Below are positions 28,959 through 37,396 of a DNA stretch of 64,000 nucleotides, in pieces. Within the stretch, counting starts at the first letter, position 1, and the number at the start of each line of letters is the position of its first letter. The notes beneath the pieces are model-generated. The model ran no database searches. It saw nothing but the letters and a program-made list of their open reading frames with translations, and had not been told where the DNA came from. The translations under genes and the position numbers were made by a program. Where the stretch lies: assembly GCA_001604135.1 (NCBI GenBank), contig LVAT01000018.1, forward strand, positions 1-64,000. The letters are read 5' to 3'. The DNA is from Clostridiales bacterium Firm_14 (GTDB taxonomy: Bacteria; Bacillota; Clostridia; Saccharofermentanales; Saccharofermentanaceae).

Positions 28959-29762
28959 TTACTTATTGCCCTTCATCTCCTGGGTCTTGTCGTAAGCTGC
29001 AGTAACGGACTTGATAACCGCATTCCTCAGACCGTTCTCTTCAAGTGCCATAACACCTGCGATCGTTGTGCCGCCGGGAGAGCATACCATATCCTTAAGC
29101 ACTGCAGGATGCGTGCCTGTCTCAAGAGCGAGCTTGCCGGATCCTGCAACGGTTGCTGCAGCGATCTTAAGAGCATCTGCTCTCTTGATGCCGAGGCTTA
29201 CTGCCGCATCCGCCATAGCCTCAATGAAGAGCATGACATAAGCAGGGCCTGTGCCGGAAACGCAGCCTATCGCATCCAATGTATTCTCATCGCAGAGGAT
29301 AGTCTCTCCGCAAGTATTAAGGAGCTTCAAAACAAAATCAGATTCCTCAGAGTCTAAGCCTACGGGGCAGACTGCAGCTACGCCAAGTCCTACCTGAGCA
29401 GGAGTATTCGGCATGATCCTTACGAACTTCCTGCCTTCACCAAGGATCCCTCCGATCCTTGCACATGTAACTGCTGCTGCAATGGAAAGAACGATAGCAC
29501 CGGGCTTTAAGCTGTCCTTGATGCTCTTCAATGCATCGTCAAAGTGAATGGGCTTGACTGCCATAAGGACATAATCAGCATCCGTTACCGCTTCCACAGC
29601 GGAAGAAGCTGCATTGACACCAAGATCTTCAGCGCACTTTCTGCAGGCTTCAGTATATACATCAAAGCACCAGGCATCGGAAGGATTTATGACTCCGCCC
29701 TTAACAAAACCGCCCAAAAGGGCCTTTCCCATGTTGCCTGTACCGATAACTGCCAATCTCAT
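28959..29762 (-). CDS. proC: Pyrroline-5-carboxylate reductase
   Basis: A 267-residue enzyme for the last step of proline biosynthesis. The N-terminal Rossmann motif is AVIGTGNMGKALLGG. MAVKPIHFDDAL, VRIMPNTPAQVG and the C-terminal signature SPGGTTIAGVMALEENGLR are diagnostic. The start at 29762 follows AAGGAG; an upstream in-frame ATG at 29834 would run into the tRNA promoter region. It appears to head the run proC-rnhA-nudix-ftsK-pncC-murJ-L,D-transpeptidase. Confidence 0.95.
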   Translation of the reverse strand: MRLAVIGTGNMGKALLGGFVKGGVINPSDAWCFDVYTEACRKCAEDLGVNAASSAVEAVTDADYVLMAVKPIHFDDALKSIKDSLKPGAIVLSIAAAVTCARIGGILGEGRKFVRIMPNTPAQVGLGVAAVCPVGLDSEESDFVLKLLNTCGETILCDENTLDAIGCVSGTGPAYVMLFIEAMADAAVSLGIKRADALKIAAATVAGSGKLALETGTHPAVLKDMVCSPGGTTIAGVMALEENGLRNAVIKSVTAAYDKTQEMKGNK

Positions 29763-29815
29763 AGAGCTGCACTCCTTATATATTAAAATATAACGAGACA
29801 ATCTTAACATTACCC

Positions 29816-29844
29816 TTGACATAGTGCAAACCAACTATTAAACT
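29816..29844 (+). promoter_or_regulatory. tRNA-Trp promoter
   Basis: Perfect TTGACA (29816-29821), a 17-nt spacer and TAAACT (29839-29844), ending 15 nt before the mature tRNA 5' end. It is divergent from proC. Confidence 0.7.
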
Positions 29845-29859
29845 GTTCGTTGCAAACAC

Positions 29860-29934
29860 AGGGGAGTGGCTCAACGGTAGAGCAGCGGTCTCCAAAACCG
29901 CCGGTTGCGCGTTCAAATCGTGTCTCCCCTGCCA
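29860..29934 (+). tRNA. tRNA-Trp (anticodon CCA)
   Basis: A cloverleaf can be drawn by eye. The acceptor AGGGGAG pairs with CTCCCCT, then G discriminator and encoded CCA. The D arm is GCTC/GAGC. The anticodon stem is GCGGT/ACCGC with 7-nt loop CTCCAAA, giving anticodon CCA for UGG. The T arm is GCGCG/CGTGT (two G-U pairs) around TTCAAAT. It is the only RNA gene in the window and is expressed alone. Confidence 0.95.
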
Positions 29935-29940
29935 AAATTA

Positions 29941-29973
29941 AAGGAGTTCTTAAGTTTAAGAACTCCTTTTTTT
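29941..29973 (+). terminator. tRNA-Trp terminator, probably bidirectional
   Basis: A 12-bp perfect stem (AAGGAGTTCTTA, 29941-29952, with its complement at 29957-29968), 4-nt loop, then T7. It lies between the tRNA and the convergent end of the paralog operon at 29994, and A-rich sequence on the other side lets it serve both. Confidence 0.92.
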
Positions 29974-29993
29974 GTTTCCATTTTGTCCCTATA

Positions 29994-31022
29994 TCAGGGT
30001 TTGATCCAGTGATACTCCTTTTCCTTTTTTGCCTCTTTTACTGGTTTTGTATCTTCCGCTAATGTTAAGCGGTGTACGGCACCCGGGGCGCCCGTCTTGA
30101 AAGAATCAACTTCCAGCGAAGTTCCGCAGTGTTTGCAGCTCTTAAGAGCATAATCAGCCAATGCACCGCAGTTTGGACAATTGTTGTAATACCACTTTTT
30201 GCTGAGTTTCCTGTCGATATTTCTTTCGATCAGCTTCTTATGATCTTTTGCCTGGTTGTCCGCCACGATCCTGACAGCGCATTTGTATAACAGTCCGTCT
30301 TTGACCTTAATAAATACCAAGCTCAAAACAGCAAAAGTGATCGCCAGCATAGAAGGCAGAAATTCGATCAGGAAATCAAAGAAGAAAAATGCCTGATCAG
30401 TTAAACGTGCCCTCTCGAATACCGGAATAACAAGCTCGTAGAAGAAAAAATTGCAAACCGCAGAAATAATGGCGAATGTGAGCCATGTTACAGGACTCAG
30501 CCAGATGATACGGGAAGTTCTTTTAACCGTCTCTCTACATGCTTTTTTATTGTCTTCGCCGTGTTCTTCATCATAAAAAGAAATTGAATAGTTCTTATCA
30601 AATCTTCCATACCATGTATGTTCATCACCAACACGGTGGTCAGAATAATCAGAACTCCATACGCTTTGATGGGATGACAACGGTTTGTATTTTATGATCT
30701 GGCGGATCGCAGTAAATCTCTTTCTCTCCTTCATGCTCGGAACGAATATGATGAATGCTATTAAAAACAATACAAAGTTTGCAATGTTATATCCGGGAAT
30801 CAATCCGCCATATACTGCTTCTATAAGGAAGATGCAGAAAAAGATAAGGAGCTGAAAGATGTCCATAAAGCCCAAGGCTCTGCCTGAGCCGCTTCCTCCG
30901 CCATAACTGTCGGAATAGCCGTAATCGGAACCGCTGCCGCTGCTAAAACCGCCAAAGCTGCCGCCTGAATCGTGGAAACTTCCGGTATGAGTGTCGGTAT
31001 CGAAAAAATCACCGCTCGCCAT
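29994..31022 (-). CDS. Gly/Ser-rich zinc-ribbon membrane protein, paralog 1
   Basis: 342 residues; family not recognised. A Gly/Ser/Asp-rich N-terminus (about 1-48) is followed by a transmembrane hairpin (about 52-95) and a cytosol-type segment with HTWYGRFDKNYSISFYDEE and KRTSRIIWLSP. A second transmembrane hairpin starts at NFFFYELVIPVFE, then comes LLYKCAVRIVADN. The C-terminal four-Cys zinc ribbon is CPNCGALADYALKSCKHCG, and a basic tail ends the chain. An even helix number would put both ends on the same side, presumably inside. It is the last of six tandem paralogs, its ATG overlapping the stop of paralog 2 (TAATG). Its N-terminus has lost most of the His residues seen in the others. 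Confidence 0.8.
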   Translation of the reverse strand: MASGDFFDTDTHTGSFHDSGGSFGGFSSGSGSDYGYSDSYGGGSGSGRALGFMDIFQLLIFFCIFLIEAVYGGLIPGYNIANFVLFLIAFIIFVPSMKERKRFTAIRQIIKYKPLSSHQSVWSSDYSDHRVGDEHTWYGRFDKNYSISFYDEEHGEDNKKACRETVKRTSRIIWLSPVTWLTFAIISAVCNFFFYELVIPVFERARLTDQAFFFFDFLIEFLPSMLAITFAVLSLVFIKVKDGLLYKCAVRIVADNQAKDHKKLIERNIDRKLSKKWYYNNCPNCGALADYALKSCKHCGTSLEVDSFKTGAPGAVHRLTLAEDTKPVKEAKKEKEYHWIKP

Positions 31023-32017
31023 TACTCTTCCTCCTTTAAGGATATCCTGTGAACCGGAACCTGAATGCCGCTGTCAAAGGACTCGACTTCCAACGAAGTG
31101 CCGCAGTGATCACAGTGCTTGAGCACCTGTGAGGGAAATGCTCCGCAGTTCGGACAGATATTGTAGTACCATTTTCTGCTGAGTTTTGCGCTTATCGCAG
31201 TTTCTTTCTCAAGTTTTTCCAAAGCAGATTTGTTGTCTTCAACCACTCTGACTGCGCACTCGTATAAAAGGTTGTCTTTTACCTTTGTCAGAACAAAGCT
31301 TCCGACTGCAAAAACCATACAGAGGACCGCCGGAAAATAGAATACAAGATGGTCAATAAACGCAAATGCGAGATCTGTCATTTCCGCTTTCTCGAAAACC
31401 GGAATTATAGCTTCATAAAAAAAGAACGTGCTGATAAGACAGAGGATCGAGAAAAGCATCCACCAATATGGACTGACCCATACGATCTTCGGCGTTCTTT
31501 TCATCGTCTCGTATGCTTTTTTAGCATTCTCATCTCCGAAATCCTTATCATAAAAAGCTATGAAATAGCGCTTGTTATAGCCATACCATGACTTGGAATC
31601 AGTCGCGGTCTTTGATACGGAATCACCTTTCCATATATAGCTCAGATTCTTGGCCGGCCCGTATTTCTTAAAAACCGTCAGAGCTTTGGTCCTATGGTAT
31701 TCACTGATGCTCTTGATCAAGAACATGCTGCTTGCAAGAAACATAACAAGATTATCGAGGTTTAACCCTGGAATCTCGTGATGAGCAACCTTCGCCAAAA
31801 AAACAAAGATACCTCCGACTGCGGCCACTGCCAGATAAGCAAAAACGAAAGCAGCATCTTCGCCGGGATCTCCGACAAAGTCGTTGTCGGAATAACTACC
31901 GTCACCGCCACCGCCGCCGCTGCTGAAAGAACCGCCGCTGCTGAAGGAACTGCTGTCACTTGAGCTGTGGAAACTTCCCGAATGAGAATCACTGTCATGA
32001 AATCCGCCGCTGGCCAT
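31022..32017 (-). CDS. Gly/Ser/His-rich zinc-ribbon membrane protein, paralog 2
   Basis: 331 residues with the family plan. The N-terminus is MASGGFHDSDSHSGSFHSS and then a Ser/Gly run (about 1-45). Helices lie at about 55-75 and 85-103. The central segment has KSWYGYNKRYFIAFYDKDF, then MKRTPKIVWVSPYWW entering hairpin 2. FFYEAIIPVFEKAEMTDLAF and LLYECAVRVVEDN follow. The C-terminal ribbon is CPNCGAFPSQVLKHCDHCG. It follows the short paralog 3 by 20 nt. Function unknown; the ribbon suggests metal or protein binding on the inner face. Confidence 0.8.
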   Translation of the reverse strand: MASGGFHDSDSHSGSFHSSSDSSSFSSGGSFSSGGGGGDGSYSDNDFVGDPGEDAAFVFAYLAVAAVGGIFVFLAKVAHHEIPGLNLDNLVMFLASSMFLIKSISEYHRTKALTVFKKYGPAKNLSYIWKGDSVSKTATDSKSWYGYNKRYFIAFYDKDFGDENAKKAYETMKRTPKIVWVSPYWWMLFSILCLISTFFFYEAIIPVFEKAEMTDLAFAFIDHLVFYFPAVLCMVFAVGSFVLTKVKDNLLYECAVRVVEDNKSALEKLEKETAISAKLSRKWYYNICPNCGAFPSQVLKHCDHCGTSLEVESFDSGIQVPVHRISLKEEE

Positions 32018-32037
32018 CTTCTGCTCCTATCTGCAGT

Positions 32038-32481
32038 TTACGATTTATTGTCCTTGCTGCCTTCAATTATCAGCGAAGCGCCGCAGAAAGAACATTCTGA
32101 TTTATTCTCTTCTCTCGGGGCACCGCATTTCGGACAGTTGGTGTAATACTTGTGCTTAAAGAACTCTGCCTTGGCATCGAGTTCTTTCTGAATCTTTTCA
32201 TTTTTCTCGATGACTTTTTCAGTCACTTTTTCCTCGACCTTTTCGTGATGCTTCTTTATGTAGATCTGACCTGAGACAATATATGCCACGAACAAAGAAG
32301 CTATGATCAAGGGCGTATAGTACGTAAGATGATCAATGGCGCTGAAAGCCGGTCCGTCCTCCATGGATCTCTCGAAAACCGGGATTACCCATTCATAGTA
32401 CAGATTCGTCGCAAAAAGGATAAGACTTAAGACTATTCCCGCTATGCCTATCGGCATAGAAAACTTGAAAAACTTATACAT
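32038..32481 (-). CDS. Half-length zinc-ribbon membrane protein, paralog 3
   Basis: Only 147 residues. It corresponds to the second half of its neighbours: a transmembrane hairpin with LYYEWVIPVFERSMEDGPAF, a charged probable coiled coil (about 75-108, EKVEEKVTEKVIEKNEKIQK) and a C-terminal ribbon (CPKCGAPREENKSECSFCG). The Gly/Ser/His-rich N-terminus, first hairpin and WxG segment are absent. The ATG overlaps the stop of paralog 4 by 8 nt, so the short form looks like a translated gene and not a fragment. It may partner with the long forms; this is inference. Confidence 0.72.
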   Translation of the reverse strand: MYKFFKFSMPIGIAGIVLSLILFATNLYYEWVIPVFERSMEDGPAFSAIDHLTYYTPLIIASLFVAYIVSGQIYIKKHHEKVEEKVTEKVIEKNEKIQKELDAKAEFFKHKYYTNCPKCGAPREENKSECSFCGASLIIEGSKDNKS

Positions 32482-33508
32482 CTAAATCCTCCCATCTCAA
32501 ATCAAGATACCTTGTAGAATTGTCGTTTTCTTCTCTTACACGTCTTATGGAACTGAGGTTCTTATCACCTTCCATGACCTCCAGAGAGCTTCCGCAGCTT
32601 ATGCATGTCTTGAGAGAAGCCGTGGCTTTTGCTCCGCAGTTAGGACAAAACGTGTGGAACCACTTCTTGCCGATCTCGGTCTTGATGAAATTCTCCGTCT
32701 CGGCAAACTTTTCTTCCGTATTGATATCAGAAGCCAGTCTTACTGCACACTCATAAAGTATATTATCCCTGACCTTAACAAAAACAAAGCTTAAGATAGG
32801 ACATCCGAGCGCCAGAACGGACGGCAGATAGAAAATGAATTCATCGAAAAACTTAAAAGCAAAATCGCTCATGATCATATTCTCGAAGATCGGAATAATG
32901 CACTCGTAGAAAAAGAAATTCACGGCAAAGATCATAATAGCGATCCAAAGCCATGTGCCGGGTCTTAGCCATACGATCCTCGGCGTTCTCTTCATGGTCT
33001 TAAGCACTTCCTCACAGTTCTTTACGCCCTGCGCCTTGGTATAAAAGTCGATCCTGTAAGCCTTGCTGTTCTTACCCGCCCAGGTTTTCTCGTCTCCTAT
33101 CCTCTCACGTGAATATATATCACTGTATACGTAATTATTTGAATAACCGCGTTTGCGGAGACTGTCCAGTGCAGAAGTCCTAACGGATTGTTTAAAACTC
33201 ATTGGGAACAGGAAACCAGCCAAAGTGAATATGCCGAGATTAAGAAGATTAAGACCCGGAACCTCGCCGTGTGCAATCGATGAAAGAACGGAAATAATAC
33301 CGTACAGCACTGCTCCGAGAACGTAGAGTACAATCAATGCCAAGCCGGAAAGGTCACCCCCGCCGCCACCGCCGCCGTAATGACCGCCGCCTCCGTAATG
33401 GCCACCGCCACCGCCGCCGGAACGTCCGCCGCCACCCGAATGGTGTCCGCCACCGGAATGGTGTCCGCCTGAATGTGAACTGCCTCCGTGAAAACTACCC
33501 CTTGCCAT
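32474..33508 (-). CDS. His/Gly-rich zinc-ribbon membrane protein, paralog 4
   Basis: 344 residues; the most His-rich N-terminus of the family (about 1-50, repeats such as HSGGHHSGGGHHSGGG, potentially metal-binding). Hairpin 1 follows (about 52-98), then KTWAGKNSKAYRIDFYTK, MKRTPRIVWLRPGTW, hairpin 2 with FFYECIIPIFENMIMSDFAF, ILYECAVRLASD and ribbon CPNCGAKATASLKTCISCG. It leads the second transcription unit of the array (paralogs 4-3-2-1) behind its own promoter. The ribosome binding site GGGGG is identical in context to that of paralog 6. Confidence 0.8.
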   Translation of the reverse strand: MARGSFHGGSSHSGGHHSGGGHHSGGGGRSGGGGGGHYGGGGHYGGGGGGGDLSGLALIVLYVLGAVLYGIISVLSSIAHGEVPGLNLLNLGIFTLAGFLFPMSFKQSVRTSALDSLRKRGYSNNYVYSDIYSRERIGDEKTWAGKNSKAYRIDFYTKAQGVKNCEEVLKTMKRTPRIVWLRPGTWLWIAIMIFAVNFFFYECIIPIFENMIMSDFAFKFFDEFIFYLPSVLALGCPILSFVFVKVRDNILYECAVRLASDINTEEKFAETENFIKTEIGKKWFHTFCPNCGAKATASLKTCISCGSSLEVMEGDKNLSSIRRVREENDNSTRYLDLRWEDLDV

Positions 33509-33546
33509 AATCTACCCCCGCAAACTATGCCTACACCTACAATTCT

Positions 33547-33575
33547 AGAATAAATACCCTCTCAGGTTTTGTAAA
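33547..33575 (-). promoter_or_regulatory. Promoter of paralog unit 4-3-2-1
   Basis: TTTACA (33570-33575), a 17-nt spacer and TATTCT (33547-33552) on the minus strand. The same -35, spacing, -10 and GGGGGTAG ribosome-binding region recur upstream of paralog 6. Confidence 0.6.
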
Positions 33576-33604
33576 TAGACATCATGGAAATGCTGCCCCT
33601 TGTG

Positions 33605-34414
33605 TTATTGTGCTGCTTCAGTTTCAGGTTGTGCTTTGCTTTCAGGCTCTAATTCTTTCTCGATTTCATCTACGATATTTGCAGCGCATTTATACAGAAG
33701 TTTCTCTCTGACCTTTACAAAAACTGCACTTAAGATCGGAAAAACAAGTGCGAGACCTGCCTGGACATAGGAAACGATATTAACAATGTGGTCGATTTCC
33801 TTAACGCTTATGGGCTTTGGAATCAAGAGATCTTTGACAAATACAGATACAGGCGTCTGCAAAAGAAACCAGAGAATAGTTATGATCAGAAACACCTTAG
33901 GCCATAACAGGAAAGTAACCGGTTTGGTCTTCATAAATTCTTTTACTCTCATAAGATTTCTGTCCCCAAAGCGTTCTTCGCTGAATGAGATACTGAAATT
34001 CTTATCATGCTTACCGACCCATGTCTCCTTCGTGCCGCGGCGTTCGGGAGATTTGAATTCACTCCGCACGCCGGAATAGGATCTGACTACATGCTTTCTG
34101 CGGACACGTTCTAATTCCTTTACCCTTTTATGGCCTTTAAAGCTGATGATAAAGGCAAACCCGGTTATGACGTAAATACTCACACTGACAAGATTTATTC
34201 CCGGTATAGTGCCCTTCTGAAGATGAGCTAAAATATAAAAAGTTACGGCAAGGATTATAAGGCCGATCATCATAAGACCTTCTTCAGCGCTGCCGTTAAA
34301 GCCGTAGTGGCCGAAGCCTCCGGAAGAACGGCCGCCGCCGCCAAAGCCTCCGCCACCTGAACTGTGATATCCGCCTGAATGGGAACTGCCGCCGTGAAAT
34401 CCGCCTGTTGCCAT
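33605..34414 (-). CDS. Gly/Ser/His-rich membrane protein without zinc ribbon, paralog 5
   Basis: 269 residues. It has the shared N-terminus MATGGFHGGSSHSGGYHSSG, two hydrophobic segments (about 50-95), ETWVGKHDKNFSISFSEERF, a degenerate second hairpin and LLYKCAANIVDEIE. It then ends in an acidic Glu-rich tail with no cysteine ribbon. The FFYE motif of the other paralogs has also been lost. It starts 1 nt after the stop of paralog 6 and closes the first transcription unit of the array. Loss of the ribbon is by a complete stop, with no visible ribbon sequence downstream. Confidence 0.75.
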   Translation of the reverse strand: MATGGFHGGSSHSGGYHSSGGGGFGGGGRSSGGFGHYGFNGSAEEGLMMIGLIILAVTFYILAHLQKGTIPGINLVSVSIYVITGFAFIISFKGHKRVKELERVRRKHVVRSYSGVRSEFKSPERRGTKETWVGKHDKNFSISFSEERFGDRNLMRVKEFMKTKPVTFLLWPKVFLIITILWFLLQTPVSVFVKDLLIPKPISVKEIDHIVNIVSYVQAGLALVFPILSAVFVKVREKLLYKCAANIVDEIEKELEPESKAQPETEAAQ

Positions 34415-34415
34415 A

Positions 34416-35402
34416 CTATTTCTCCTTATTGCCTTCAGAAATGCGGTGGAATCCGCTGTAGCTGTTGCCGTTAAATGAATTCATTTCGAGAGAAGAACCG
34501 CATTTATTGCAGAATCTGCCGGAAAGACCGGCTTCTGCTCCGCAGTTCGGACATATATTGTAATACCATTTTTTGCTTAACCTGTCTGCTATGGAAGTTT
34601 CCGTTCTTATCCTCATCTCAGCAGCTTTATTCTCCTGTACGATCCTTACCGCGCATTTATAGAGCAGACTGTCCTTGATCCACATGGTTATAAGAGCAGC
34701 TGCGGCACATAAGGCACATAAGATCGAAGGGAAATAGAATGTAAGATTATCGAAAAAAGCGAATGCCTCATCACTCATAATTGCGTTTTCGAATACAGGG
34801 ATGACCAGTTCATAAAAGAACACCGAGCTGAAAAAGGCAAGAACGCCTATGAATACCCAGACTTTATAGCTCATCCAGATGATCTTGGGAGTCCTGTCGA
34901 TTACTTCCCTGACCTTAAGAACGTTATCCTCGCCAAATTCCCTGTCATCGAAAACTATCCGGTAATAACCGTATGCTCCGGCCCAGCTCTTCTTGTCTGT
35001 ACCGCTCAAACTTGAGGCATATGAACCGTTCCAGACACAGCCTAAGACCCTGTGACGGCAGTCACGCTTGATCTCTTGGGTAACAGCCGTTCTCTCGCTT
35101 TGCTTACCGACAATATAAAATACGATTCCGCTGACCCAGAACACAAATATGTTCAAGTAGTTAAAGCCCCATAGAACGGATTGGTTATACGCCGCCAACA
35201 TCCACATGATGAGCGGGCCCCACGCAAAGATCAACCAAACAGAACCTGCGCCGGAGCCACCGCCGCCGCCGTAATAATGTCCTCCGGAACTGTAATGCGA
35301 ACTGCCGCCCGAATAGCCACCGCCACCGGAAAAACCTCCGCCGCCGGAACTGTGAAAACTGCCAGAATGTGAGCTTCCGCCGTGGAATCCGCCACTTGCC
35401 AT
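34416..35402 (-). CDS. Gly/Ser/His-rich zinc-ribbon membrane protein, paralog 6
   Basis: 328 residues with the full plan. MASGGFHGGSSHSGSFHSSG begins a Gly/Ser/Tyr-rich stretch (about 1-52). Two helices, KSWAGAYGYYRIVFDDREF, IDRTPKIIWMSYKVW, FFYELVIPVFENAIMSDEAF, LLYKCAVRIVQEN and ribbon CPNCGAEAGLSGRFCNKCG follow. It is first in the array, behind a TTTACA/TATTCT promoter, with GGGGG as ribosome binding site. Its organisation is the best reference for the family. Confidence 0.8.
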   Translation of the reverse strand: MASGGFHGGSSHSGSFHSSGGGGFSGGGGYSGGSSHYSSGGHYYGGGGGSGAGSVWLIFAWGPLIMWMLAAYNQSVLWGFNYLNIFVFWVSGIVFYIVGKQSERTAVTQEIKRDCRHRVLGCVWNGSYASSLSGTDKKSWAGAYGYYRIVFDDREFGEDNVLKVREVIDRTPKIIWMSYKVWVFIGVLAFFSSVFFYELVIPVFENAIMSDEAFAFFDNLTFYFPSILCALCAAAALITMWIKDSLLYKCAVRIVQENKAAEMRIRTETSIADRLSKKWYYNICPNCGAEAGLSGRFCNKCGSSLEMNSFNGNSYSGFHRISEGNKEK

Positions 35403-35438
35403 AAAACTACCCCCGCCAAATCTGATCCCTGTACTTCA

Positions 35439-35467
35439 AGAATAAGATTTAACGGGGGCTTTGTAAA
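35439..35467 (-). promoter_or_regulatory. Promoter of paralog unit 6-5
   Basis: TTTACA (35462-35467), a 17-nt spacer and TATTCT (35439-35444) on the minus strand, in the short gap after the acidic membrane protein gene. It is the twin of the promoter at 33547-33575. Confidence 0.6.
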
Positions 35468-35490
35468 TACTTCAGTAATCAGAACGTCTT

Positions 35491-36549
35491 TTATGTCGTT
35501 GCTGCGGAAGTCTCTGCAACTGATTCGGATGCCGCGGTCTCGAACATTGCATCGATGTTCTCCCTGATCTGTGACTCGTTGAGAATTGATTTCGGAACAC
35601 AGTCAACGACGATGTAAACGATCTCTCCGCCGCCGTCAGCAGCCTTCTTTACCGCTACAAGCCTGAAAGCATAATCGCCCTTTACATAGAATCTGGCATC
35701 ACCGTCATATTCCTTCATTGCCTTCATGGCAACATCCATGGCCTGATACATGGTAAGGTCAGGATAAAGCGCACATATGACATTAGATGCATAAAGCCAC
35801 ACGGTGTTGAATTCCTCGTCGCCATACTGGACATAGACTCTTACATAAGACAGATTTCCGTCACTCTTTCTGGTAGCGCCTTCAACGCCTCCGACGGAAT
35901 AATACTTGAACGGGCCGTCAAAGAAATCAGCATACGCTCTGTTTGCCGTAATAACGGCCTTGTCTCCGAGGACGCTCGGATGCGTTGTGCTGTCAACATA
36001 TTCAGGTGCTCTGAAAGTAAAATCCACACCGTTGTTTATCAGTGACTGGGCAACTCCGCCGTCATTAAATCTTGTCTGGAATTCCGGAAGAGTCATGCCC
36101 ATTGAAGGCGTTGTCGCATTAGGGAGCATGAAATAGATTCCCGCAACGATCAAGGCCAGGATTGCAAGGATTACGCATACCGGAATGAGCGGATCTTTCT
36201 TGCATTTCTCGATGAAATGGAGTTTTCTGAACTCTTCGTTTGCTTTGGATTCTTCAGCAGATACGAGCGGCTCGGTCTCTTTTTCCGGAGCTTTCTCAGA
36301 TTTCTCTTCCTTATCTTCCCCCGATTCATCCGCCTCAGCCTCTACTGCGGCCTCTTCGATGATCTCAGCTTCAGCCTCTTCCGCAGTCTCTTCTGCGGTC
36401 TCTTCTGCCATCTCTTCAGCTTCTTGAGCGGCCTCTTCATCAGTCACTTCAACAGCTGTATCAACGGTCTCCTCAGCTTTGATCTCAAGTTCTTCAGTTT
36501 TATTTTCATTCTGCTGGGGCTTTTTGCCCTTGTTCTTAGATTTAGACAT
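35491..36549 (-). CDS. Acidic-domain single-pass membrane protein, unknown
   Basis: 352 residues, not recognised. A Lys-rich start is followed by a strikingly Glu/Ala-rich N-terminal stretch (about 20-110, repeats of AEETAEE). A short basic patch and one transmembrane helix (about 122-145, PVCVILAILALIVAGIYFML) come next. A folded-looking extracytoplasmic domain of about 190 residues (YYSVGGVEG, YVQYGDEEFNTVWLY, AMKEYDGDARFYVKG) follows, then a Ser/Thr/Ala tail. The type II orientation is inferred. It sits directly upstream of the paralog array but is separately promoted. Confidence 0.72.
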   Translation of the reverse strand: MSKSKNKGKKPQQNENKTEELEIKAEETVDTAVEVTDEEAAQEAEEMAEETAEETAEEAEAEIIEEAAVEAEADESGEDKEEKSEKAPEKETEPLVSAEESKANEEFRKLHFIEKCKKDPLIPVCVILAILALIVAGIYFMLPNATTPSMGMTLPEFQTRFNDGGVAQSLINNGVDFTFRAPEYVDSTTHPSVLGDKAVITANRAYADFFDGPFKYYSVGGVEGATRKSDGNLSYVRVYVQYGDEEFNTVWLYASNVICALYPDLTMYQAMDVAMKAMKEYDGDARFYVKGDYAFRLVAVKKAADGGGEIVYIVVDCVPKSILNESQIRENIDAMFETAASESVAETSAATT

Positions 36550-36578
36550 AACTAGGAATCCTCCGATTTAACCCTGAT

Positions 36579-36607
36579 ATTATAAAGATAAAGAGCGCTC
36601 TTGTAAA
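36579..36607 (-). promoter_or_regulatory. Promoter of the acidic membrane protein, with 12-bp palindrome
   Basis: TTTACA (36602-36607), a 17-nt spacer and perfect TATAAT (36579-36584) on the minus strand. The perfect palindrome AAGAGCGCTCTT (36591-36602) fills the spacer and touches the -35, a likely operator. Confidence 0.6.
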
Positions 36608-36691
36608 ACAAAAGTCCCTCAAAGTCTGCAAGGTTCTTCAGAATCGTGTACAATATCTGCTATAGGAATTGATTTTAAGGGGGATAATACA

Positions 36692-37396
36692 ATGCCGCAT
36701 CTTTTGATCTCAGGAGGTACCAGAGGGATCGGCAGAGCATGTGCGGAGCTTTTCGCAGGACAGGGATATAAGGTAACTTCGCTCAGCCGTTACGGCAAGC
36801 CGGACAACGCGCTGGAAGGCGTGGATTACTATGCCTGCGACATCAGAGATTTCGAGAACGTTGCTTCAGCGGTAAGCAGTGCGATCGAGAAGAACGGCGA
36901 TATCGACGTTCTCATCTCCAATGCCGGAATATCCGTAACAGGCCTTGCCCAGGACATGAAGTACCAGGACTACAGGGCTGTCATGGATACTAATTTCGGC
37001 GGACTCTTCAATCTCGCAAATGCAGTAATACCTGACATGGTCAAGCAAAAACACGGAGTCATTCTTGCCGTATCTTCAATGTGGGGACAGACAGGAGCAT
37101 CATGTGAATCTTTATACTCGGCAAGCAAAGGTGCCGTGGATTCGTATATCAAGGCGCTTGCCAAGGAATTGGGACCTTCCGGCATCAGGGTCAATGCCGT
37201 ATCACCCGGAGCTACTGAAACAGACATGATGAAGTGCTTTGGCGAAGACGACAGAAGAGCCATCTGTGAGGACACTCCCGTCGGCAGGCTCGGTGAACCC
37301 GAAGAGATCGCCGAGACGCTGTTTTTCCTCCAGTCCGATAAGGCTTCTTTCATAACGGGCCAGATCATCGGCGTAAACGGCGGATACCTCATTTAA
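36692..37396 (+). CDS. SDR-family oxidoreductase (FabG-like)
   Basis: A 234-residue short-chain dehydrogenase/reductase. The nucleotide-binding GGTRGIGRACAELF is near residue 8, NAGIS near 72, the catalytic Ser lies in AVSSMWG, YSASKGA holds the Tyr and Lys, and VSPGATETDM follows. It ends INGGYLI-like (GVNGGYLI), typical of FabG relatives. GGGGGA ribosome binding site. Isolated from fatty-acid synthesis genes, so the substrate is open; it is divergent from the acidic membrane protein gene. Confidence 0.9.
   Translation: MPHLLISGGTRGIGRACAELFAGQGYKVTSLSRYGKPDNALEGVDYYACDIRDFENVASAVSSAIEKNGDIDVLISNAGISVTGLAQDMKYQDYRAVMDTNFGGLFNLANAVIPDMVKQKHGVILAVSSMWGQTGASCESLYSASKGAVDSYIKALAKELGPSGIRVNAVSPGATETDMMKCFGEDDRRAICEDTPVGRLGEPEEIAETLFFLQSDKASFITGQIIGVNGGYLI

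Follow-up and report, generated by a model that had tools for sequence, protein, structure and literature searches.

A conserved, nearly genus-restricted gene array for large and small zinc-ribbon membrane proteins in Clostridiales bacterium Firm_14

The array and its products

The window analysed here is a stretch of 64,000 nucleotides from the genome (3.12 Mb) of Clostridiales bacterium Firm_14 (contig LVAT01000018.1; family Saccharofermentanaceae), and the subject is an array of six consecutive genes at 29994-35402 whose products combine membrane hairpins with zinc ribbons. All six open reading frames are present, on the minus strand and at exactly the coordinates given in an earlier note that had been written from the sequence alone. 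In the direction of transcription the array begins with P0006 (34416..35402; 328 residues), which carries, in this order, a head, hairpin 1, a mid domain, hairpin 2, a stalk and a zinc ribbon. It is followed by P0005 (33605..34414; 269 residues), which has a head and no ribbon; P0004 (32474..33508; 344 residues), which belongs to the same clade as the first array gene of the related loci L046, L048, L052 and L054; P0003 (32038..32481; 147 residues), which consists of hairpin 2, a 66-residue spacing and a zinc ribbon, and whose start overlaps the end of P0004 by 8 nucleotides; P0002 (31022..32017; 331 residues), the protein that was modelled with AlphaFold2 and that supplies the residue numbering used below; and P0001 (29994..31022; 342 residues), the last gene, which overlaps P0002 by 1 nucleotide. 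P0003 is referred to as the small, common subunit and the other five as large subunits.

The earlier note took these for six paralogs sharing one ordered set of modules. The description fits P0001, P0002, P0004 and P0006, which contain every module named (the first three are 39%, 44% and 41% identical to P0006, respectively), and does not fit the other two. P0005 lacks the ribbon, its second hairpin is without the FFYE..IPVFE signature, and it has Val at the position equivalent to D222. P0003 has no head, hairpin 1, WxG...FxD segment, RTPKIVW lead-in or LLYKCAVR motif. (The four-cysteine CxxC...CxxC ribbon is thus found in five of the six proteins.) Judged by the module content of P0003 and by its own relatives, the locus encodes five large proteins and one small one. 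Six equal copies are ruled out, the 147-residue P0003 gene forming a separate orthologous group, and 16 relatives of 140-147 residues at 53-69% identity likewise rule out P0003 as a truncated copy. With P0002 as query, the other five are recovered from their own genome well above chance (E = 8e-87 to 1e-16). Two more homologs lie elsewhere in this genome: a decayed large gene, represented by a fragment with an internal TAG (G000:C6:243707-244048; L037:8750-9043), and a headless copy of 272 residues (G000:C10; L036:2928-3746, minus strand), a lone paralog with orthologs at L028, L098, L113-L115 and L117-L126.

Several conserved features are shared across these proteins. Heads are rich in Gly, Ser and His, with aromatic residues, and start with a His triad at positions 7, 12 and 17; 40 of the 43 headed members have the whole triad, and all 43 have His17 and Gly14 (this count leaves out two of 45 rows, L036 and L045:2995, the latter with a start past the head motif). 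In a larger set the triad lies at exactly these positions in 55 of 63 proteins, and five of the eight misses are open reading frames with starts too far upstream. At the outer face Y201, E202, P206, E209, D215 and D222 are each kept in 57-60 of the 63 headed proteins; in the small protein Pro34, Glu37 and Asp50 are invariant in the stretch matching this cluster. The distance from D222 to the first ribbon cysteine, referred to as the stalk spacing, is invariant at 66 residues, both in the large proteins with head and ribbon (60 of 60) and in the small ones (28 of 28); three headed, ribbon-less sequences stand outside the 60. The mid domain, unlike the fixed stalk, varies in length, from 61 to 68. 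These are counts of related sequences and not of independent events. Sorting by head was done with a composition filter, which classed 21 of 84 large sequences as headless; 15 of these are the lone paralog, and the other six, all with a spacing of 66, are mis-set starts, fragments or one divergent copy.

The lone paralog (n = 15) departs from this pattern at several points together. It has no head, and E202N, E209A and D222R are each found in 13 of 15 sequences. Its stalk spacing is 59 in 14 of 15 (L125, measured at 55, had a gap at the D column), seven residues shorter than in the headed proteins; this difference amounts to one heptad, as would fit a coiled stalk. R109, W144, F155, D248 and C254 are retained in 15 of 15.

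Lys and Arg make up 1-3.5% of the outer loops and Asp and Glu 13-21%, and Lys and Arg rise to 18-22% in the mid domain and stalk. By the positive-inside rule, these loop charges place head, mid domain and ribbon in the cytoplasm. Inspection by eye found neither a His nor a charged residue conserved in the middle of the membrane; those acids that are conserved lie at the outer ends of helices 3 and 4. Head-like open reading frames outside the family numbered zero at the threshold used, in the loci collected by then. A search of the own genome with the P0004 head returned, apart from the query, just two heads, those of P0005 and P0006. Because it failed to recover those of P0001 and P0002, this search is too insensitive to exclude other head-bearing proteins.

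Distribution, co-occurrence and genomic location

The earlier note had proposed a survey of phyletic spread and copy number, and its outcome is narrow: within the window's genus the large-gene body occurs in 29 of 85 genomes. One further, outlying genome, Clostridiales bacterium Firm_16 (L058), has it too, and the remaining Bacillota sampled do not. A genome holds up to five headed large genes, and a cluster one small gene. Of 59 genomes in a single-sequence search 12 were positive, the own genome among them and all of this genus; from other genera of the order, none of 24 was. A body profile made without the ribbon matched 4 of 391 genomes at class level, all in the window's genus (by listing order, 380 of the 391 come from elsewhere), and 1 of 398 at phylum level, which is the own genome; these wide scans scored at most six or seven candidates per genome, a depth at which very distant body relatives could be missed. 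A first phylum scan had been positive in 75 of 398 genomes, and the wide spread that it suggested is ruled out: every non-self match listed is confined to profile positions 172-285, where the stalk end and ribbon lie. A scan of genomes found by name (Saccharofermentans, Ruminococcaceae, Oscillospiraceae, Clostridia and Clostridiales records, mostly metagenome-assembled genomes) yielded 21 loci, with Firm_16 set apart. The array family is real, conserved and nearly restricted to one genus.

Large and small genes occur together. The small gene is found in 29 of the 85 genus genomes, the same 29 that match the large profile. (The two sets were compared by eye. One of the genomes, G475, is represented by a large-gene fragment at a contig end only, and in G497 a contig end truncates the small gene; G021, with only weak matches to the small profile, was scored as lacking both.) The 29 genomes hold 30 small copies, the single genome with two (G016) having them on two contigs, each with large genes. 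Headed large genes reach five per genome (G000 and G005), some of them dispersed, and up to two lone headless copies may be present in addition; G005 also has a ribbon-less copy similar to P0005, with Val at the D222 position as in P0005. Among 24 distinct small genes that have a large gene upstream on the same strand, 22 start between -11 and +13 nucleotides from its end. Nine of 33 listed rows are without a counted upstream large gene: L051, L011, L025 and L052, with starts set too early; L097, a cut copy; L152 (G478), where the small gene is alone; L019 and L030 (G013), where it comes first; and L012, with a neighbour outside the stretch or uncounted, the region being counted from L035.

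Conservation is not confined to the low-complexity head, a possibility that the earlier note had raised. The ratio of nonsynonymous to synonymous substitution rates (dN/dS) is 0.20-0.33 for the body in 10 of 11 large-gene pairs, the eleventh being a nearly identical pair with almost no changes and a ratio of 0.92. The small gene, at 0.05-0.17 in three pairs, lies below the large bodies, and the head ranges from 0 to 0.47 over 42-48 codons, despite insertions and deletions. By these ratios the array genes are under purifying selection. In a tree of 42 large bodies, proteins of the P0004, P0002 and P0001 types group with sequences from other genomes in clades of high support; good support is seen for only 20 of the 39 inner branches, however, and the positions of P0005 and P0006 are not firm. 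Recent tandem duplication is ruled out by these orthologous groups, which are shared between species.

The arrays are old and portable. As far as the gene maps show, the 22 places surveyed by eye (the window and the 21 loci) comprise six between P0007 and tRNA-Trp/proC, ten beside metH, five elsewhere and one, L051, that is unsettled. (The names proC, rnhA and metH, and the transporter types near arrays, are putative assignments from the sequence.) In three of four genomes viewed (L109, L110 and L112) the P0007/proC site is empty, P0007 being followed by tRNA-Trp and proC within 300 bases; in L111 another gene lies between them. In the window the array adjoins tRNA-Trp (29860-29934), without any integrase having been noticed. 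Since the tRNA end occurs only once in 29301-36700, insertion at tRNA-Trp that duplicates this end is rejected.

On the other side of the array lies P0007 (35491-36549, minus strand), which has an acidic N-terminal stretch, one apparent membrane span and an outer part, and matches no family above cut-off in Pfam or NCBIfam. It is ruled out as a member of the system, being present in 72 of 85 genus genomes, versus 29 for the array. Other zinc-ribbon-like proteins are encoded near arrays in L039, L044, L047 and L049 (for example L044:4167-5825, with Zn_Ribbon_1 and a near-threshold DUF4190), and a scan of them revealed no consistent pattern. Comparison of L046 with L048 (7198-11766 of L046) gives gene-by-gene DNA identities of 0.84, 0.99, 0.90, 0.94 and 0.97, with flanking genes that vary as well (0.85-0.996); these jumps may reflect exchange of single genes between strains.

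A promoter-like site, TTTACA and TATTCT separated by 17 nucleotides, lies upstream of P0006 (35439..35467, minus strand), and the same motif recurs upstream of P0004 (33547..33575, minus strand). The case for the first is its conservation in other array leaders, as judged by eye: the layout, with a spacing of 16-17, is seen in 7 of 7 leaders of the P0007/proC type (L051 included) and in 7 of 8 of the metH type. The promoter scan by itself lends no support, with 8 sites against 11.1 expected from shuffles and thus no excess; terminator-like sites number 9 against 6.9 expected. A strong hairpin (35409..35459, minus strand; -32.2 kcal/mol, z -7.7) overlaps the promoter spacer, the -10 element and the ribosome-binding site. 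Leaders at the P0007/proC location fold strongly in six of six cases (z -7.7, -6.0, -5.3, -7.3, -6.3 and -4.5) and those at the metH location in none of four (z -0.35, 0.75, -1.24 and -0.34); the stretches folded were picked after the inverted repeat had been noticed. Covariation is modest, both sides having changed in 2 of 13 pairs, with several pairs disrupted in one or two sequences. If the promoter is used, the left arm of the hairpin falls between the -35 and -10 elements, so that only transcripts running in from upstream could form the structure, which might then serve as an insulator or terminator towards P0007.

Searches for known families and folds

The earlier note knew of no named family with this architecture, and that holds after searches of four profile libraries, a profile search of PDB sequences and structure searches. 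For the six window proteins, Pfam and NCBIfam at E <= 1 return only sub-threshold zinc ribbons and scattered weak matches (the best Pfam zinc-ribbon score is 24.3 bits against a cut-off of 25, and every such match lies below cut-off), and PHROGs and PADLOC only ribbon-region or weak partial matches. Scanned singly, 42 body sequences and 17 small proteins match mainly ribbon families (among the best 25 of 35 and 25 of 31 families); the few non-ribbon matches include MFS_1 in 5 of 42 bodies (best 3e-4) and DUF3754 in three, which are read as generic matches between membrane helices. The body profile finds 29 PDB sequences at E <= 1, headed by ribosomal L32, and all 29 align at profile positions 200-271, which is the stalk end and ribbon. 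The likeness to zinc-ribbon domains (Pfam Zn_Ribbon_1, Zn_ribbon_3, DZR) is a shared C-terminal CPxCG...CxxCG four-cysteine ribbon, a small, generic part that is uninformative about the body.

In the AlphaFold2 model of P0002, 160 of 331 residues have a predicted local distance difference test score (pLDDT) of 90 or above; the head, residues 1-48, is below 50. Foldseek searches with this model return no match at E <= 0.001 in PDB or among viral models. Of 46 weak PDB matches (E 2-10), 31 are chains of TolQ, ExbB, ZorA or PomA, and on realignment the root-mean-square deviation is near 10 for most; these matches are read as a common helix layout. No known fold for the mid domain appears among the structure matches listed. 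A structure search with the small protein yields mostly zinc-finger and helical matches to a low-confidence model and was set aside as evidence. Relatives with the P0002 body are absent from viral contigs (IMG/VR, by body alignment), plasmid records and phage records, and no description of the family was seen in the paper listings and opening parts of abstracts searched, mainly from open-access journals. The body is without a relative in the libraries searched and is new as a family.

A possible mixed assembly

From the observed parts of these proteins, their charge topology, the co-occurrence and common register of large and small chains and the joint loss of features in the lone paralog we infer a physical complex with an input and an output. 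It is reasonably probable that large and small proteins assemble together; that the product is a hetero-oligomeric membrane scaffold or sensor, in which large subunits of variable kind join a single common small one, is put forward tentatively, as the reading we prefer. (The hetero-oligomeric complex that the earlier note suggested gains indirect support from large/small co-occurrence, from the one small gene per cluster and from the equal stalk length.) The shared register, co-occurrence and co-loss fit chains that would stand side by side. In each chain hairpin 2 would present the acidic cluster at the outer face and helix 4 would extend as a long cytoplasmic stalk, holding its zinc ribbon at a set distance below the membrane. 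Large subunits would have three further parts: another hairpin, a mid domain in the cytoplasm and a disordered Gly/Ser/His head starting with the His triad. The small subunit would nucleate assembly, and the large ones would vary mid domain and head. Hairpin 2 and the stalks would pack, in-register stalks gathering the ribbons at one height as a docking or output platform, and the heads might add multivalent, possibly metal-dependent, clustering. As a guess, the input may be a cation or cationic peptide bound at the acidic outer face and the output docking to the ribbons and clustering by the heads. A bolder version, in which interchangeable large subunits surround a small core and their His-triad heads form a metal-tunable brush or condensate at the inner face, coupled through the stalks to an acidic outer sensor ring, would be a long shot.

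Two other kinds of protein offer partial likenesses. Envelope sensors with an acidic patch of the PhoQ kind share the outer-face acidic cluster that could bind cations or cationic peptides; the array proteins differ from them in having no recognised enzymatic output domain and in comprising several paralogous subunits. Proteins with a TPM domain or DUF2207 have Gly-rich disordered tails, and the likeness is a Gly/Ser-rich low-complexity segment in a bacterial membrane protein; in the array proteins that segment is N-terminal, with a fixed His triad, and the body has no Pfam match.

A number of observations weigh against a mixed, in-register assembly. Large and small stalk sequences are hardly alike (r = 0.18 in register), and over shifts of up to five residues r ranges from -0.32 to 0.38, the values at -4 (0.38) and +2 (0.30) exceeding that in register. 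Of the periods tested, a heptad-like one (103 degrees) comes out strongest in the small stalk only. Inheritance may explain part of the invariant register, since related helices often go without insertions and deletions; and the lone paralogs are orthologs, so that their co-losses may be one event. The gene pattern has exceptions: in G478 the large copies are scattered and none lies with the small gene in the stretch examined, G013 has its small gene ahead of the large ones, and in G007 a small gene is kept beside broken large genes, with no intact ones. Firm_16 has a single headed, ribbon-less copy and no small gene (the small-gene profile matches only that same large gene). The single-chain model of P0003 is poor (pLDDT 66).

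Some of these exceptions lead to an alternative in which the family is simply diversified and each large paralog acts alone, for example as a homo-oligomer, so that the array would record a history of duplication and exchange. Headed large genes do occur alone elsewhere, L058 has one copy and no small gene, and the L046 and L048 arrays vary in DNA identity from gene to gene (0.84 to 0.99), as do their flanks. Against it speak the joint occurrence of large and small genes, with a single small gene in each cluster, the tight gene spacing and the common stalk length, and we regard it as doubtful, if worth keeping in mind. The heads could also be the working part, in a membrane-tethered condensate scaffold whose Gly/Ser/His/Phe segments act by weak multivalent contacts with no sensing. 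The disorder of the P0002 head, the aromatic residues of Gly/Ser/His-rich heads and the low head dN/dS despite insertions and deletions are consistent with this; a role of the head only would leave unexplained why the outer acidic cluster and the stalk-ribbon module are strictly kept as well, and we consider such a scaffold distinctly improbable.

A device for metal uptake, efflux or buffering, in which an acidic outer mouth and a membrane bundle would pass Zn or Ni on to His heads and inner ribbons, would account for the near-constant triad, the acidic outer loops and the zinc-ribbon tails, and at the metH location an ABC transporter, putatively of the iron/cobalamin type, lies a few genes downstream on the gene maps. 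The lack of any conserved mid-membrane charge or His by eye, with conserved acids instead at the outer ends of helices 3 and 4, counts against it; a single zinc ribbon per chain is usually structural; and no metal gene was noticed at the other locations, where neighbours were not systematically annotated. The device is unlikely. Least probable, and barely credible, is a proton-driven motor or energy transducer of the MotA/TolQ/ExbB kind. With these proteins and ZorA the array proteins share the order of a membrane hairpin, a cytoplasmic part and a second hairpin with its last helix deep in the cytoplasm, and 31 of the 46 weak Foldseek matches point the same way (the best VIA-align Z is 5.8, with a root-mean-square deviation of 10.5 over 175 residues). 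But Z below 8 is common for helical models, no Foldseek match reaches E <= 0.001, the query template-modelling score is at most 0.24, and the Pfam and NCBIfam matches of the six window proteins at E <= 1 include no such family. The array proteins have an extra disordered head and a ribbon, with no profile, significant structure or partner match; the array holds no MotB- or ExbD-like gene, and the single-span P0007 is independent of it (72/85 versus 29/85 genomes).

Nothing known predicts what the array proteins do, because the body is without a relative in the libraries searched. Their architecture and co-varying package are unusual and open to experiment, but lineage-restricted families of such a kind are common. 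If the shared-register reading of a scaffold or sensor is true, the array would specify a simple, testable bacterial membrane complex with variable large subunits, a fixed core and conserved disordered cytoplasmic heads, and a function would be at hand for genes carried by about a third (29 of 85) of the genomes of this gut and rumen genus.

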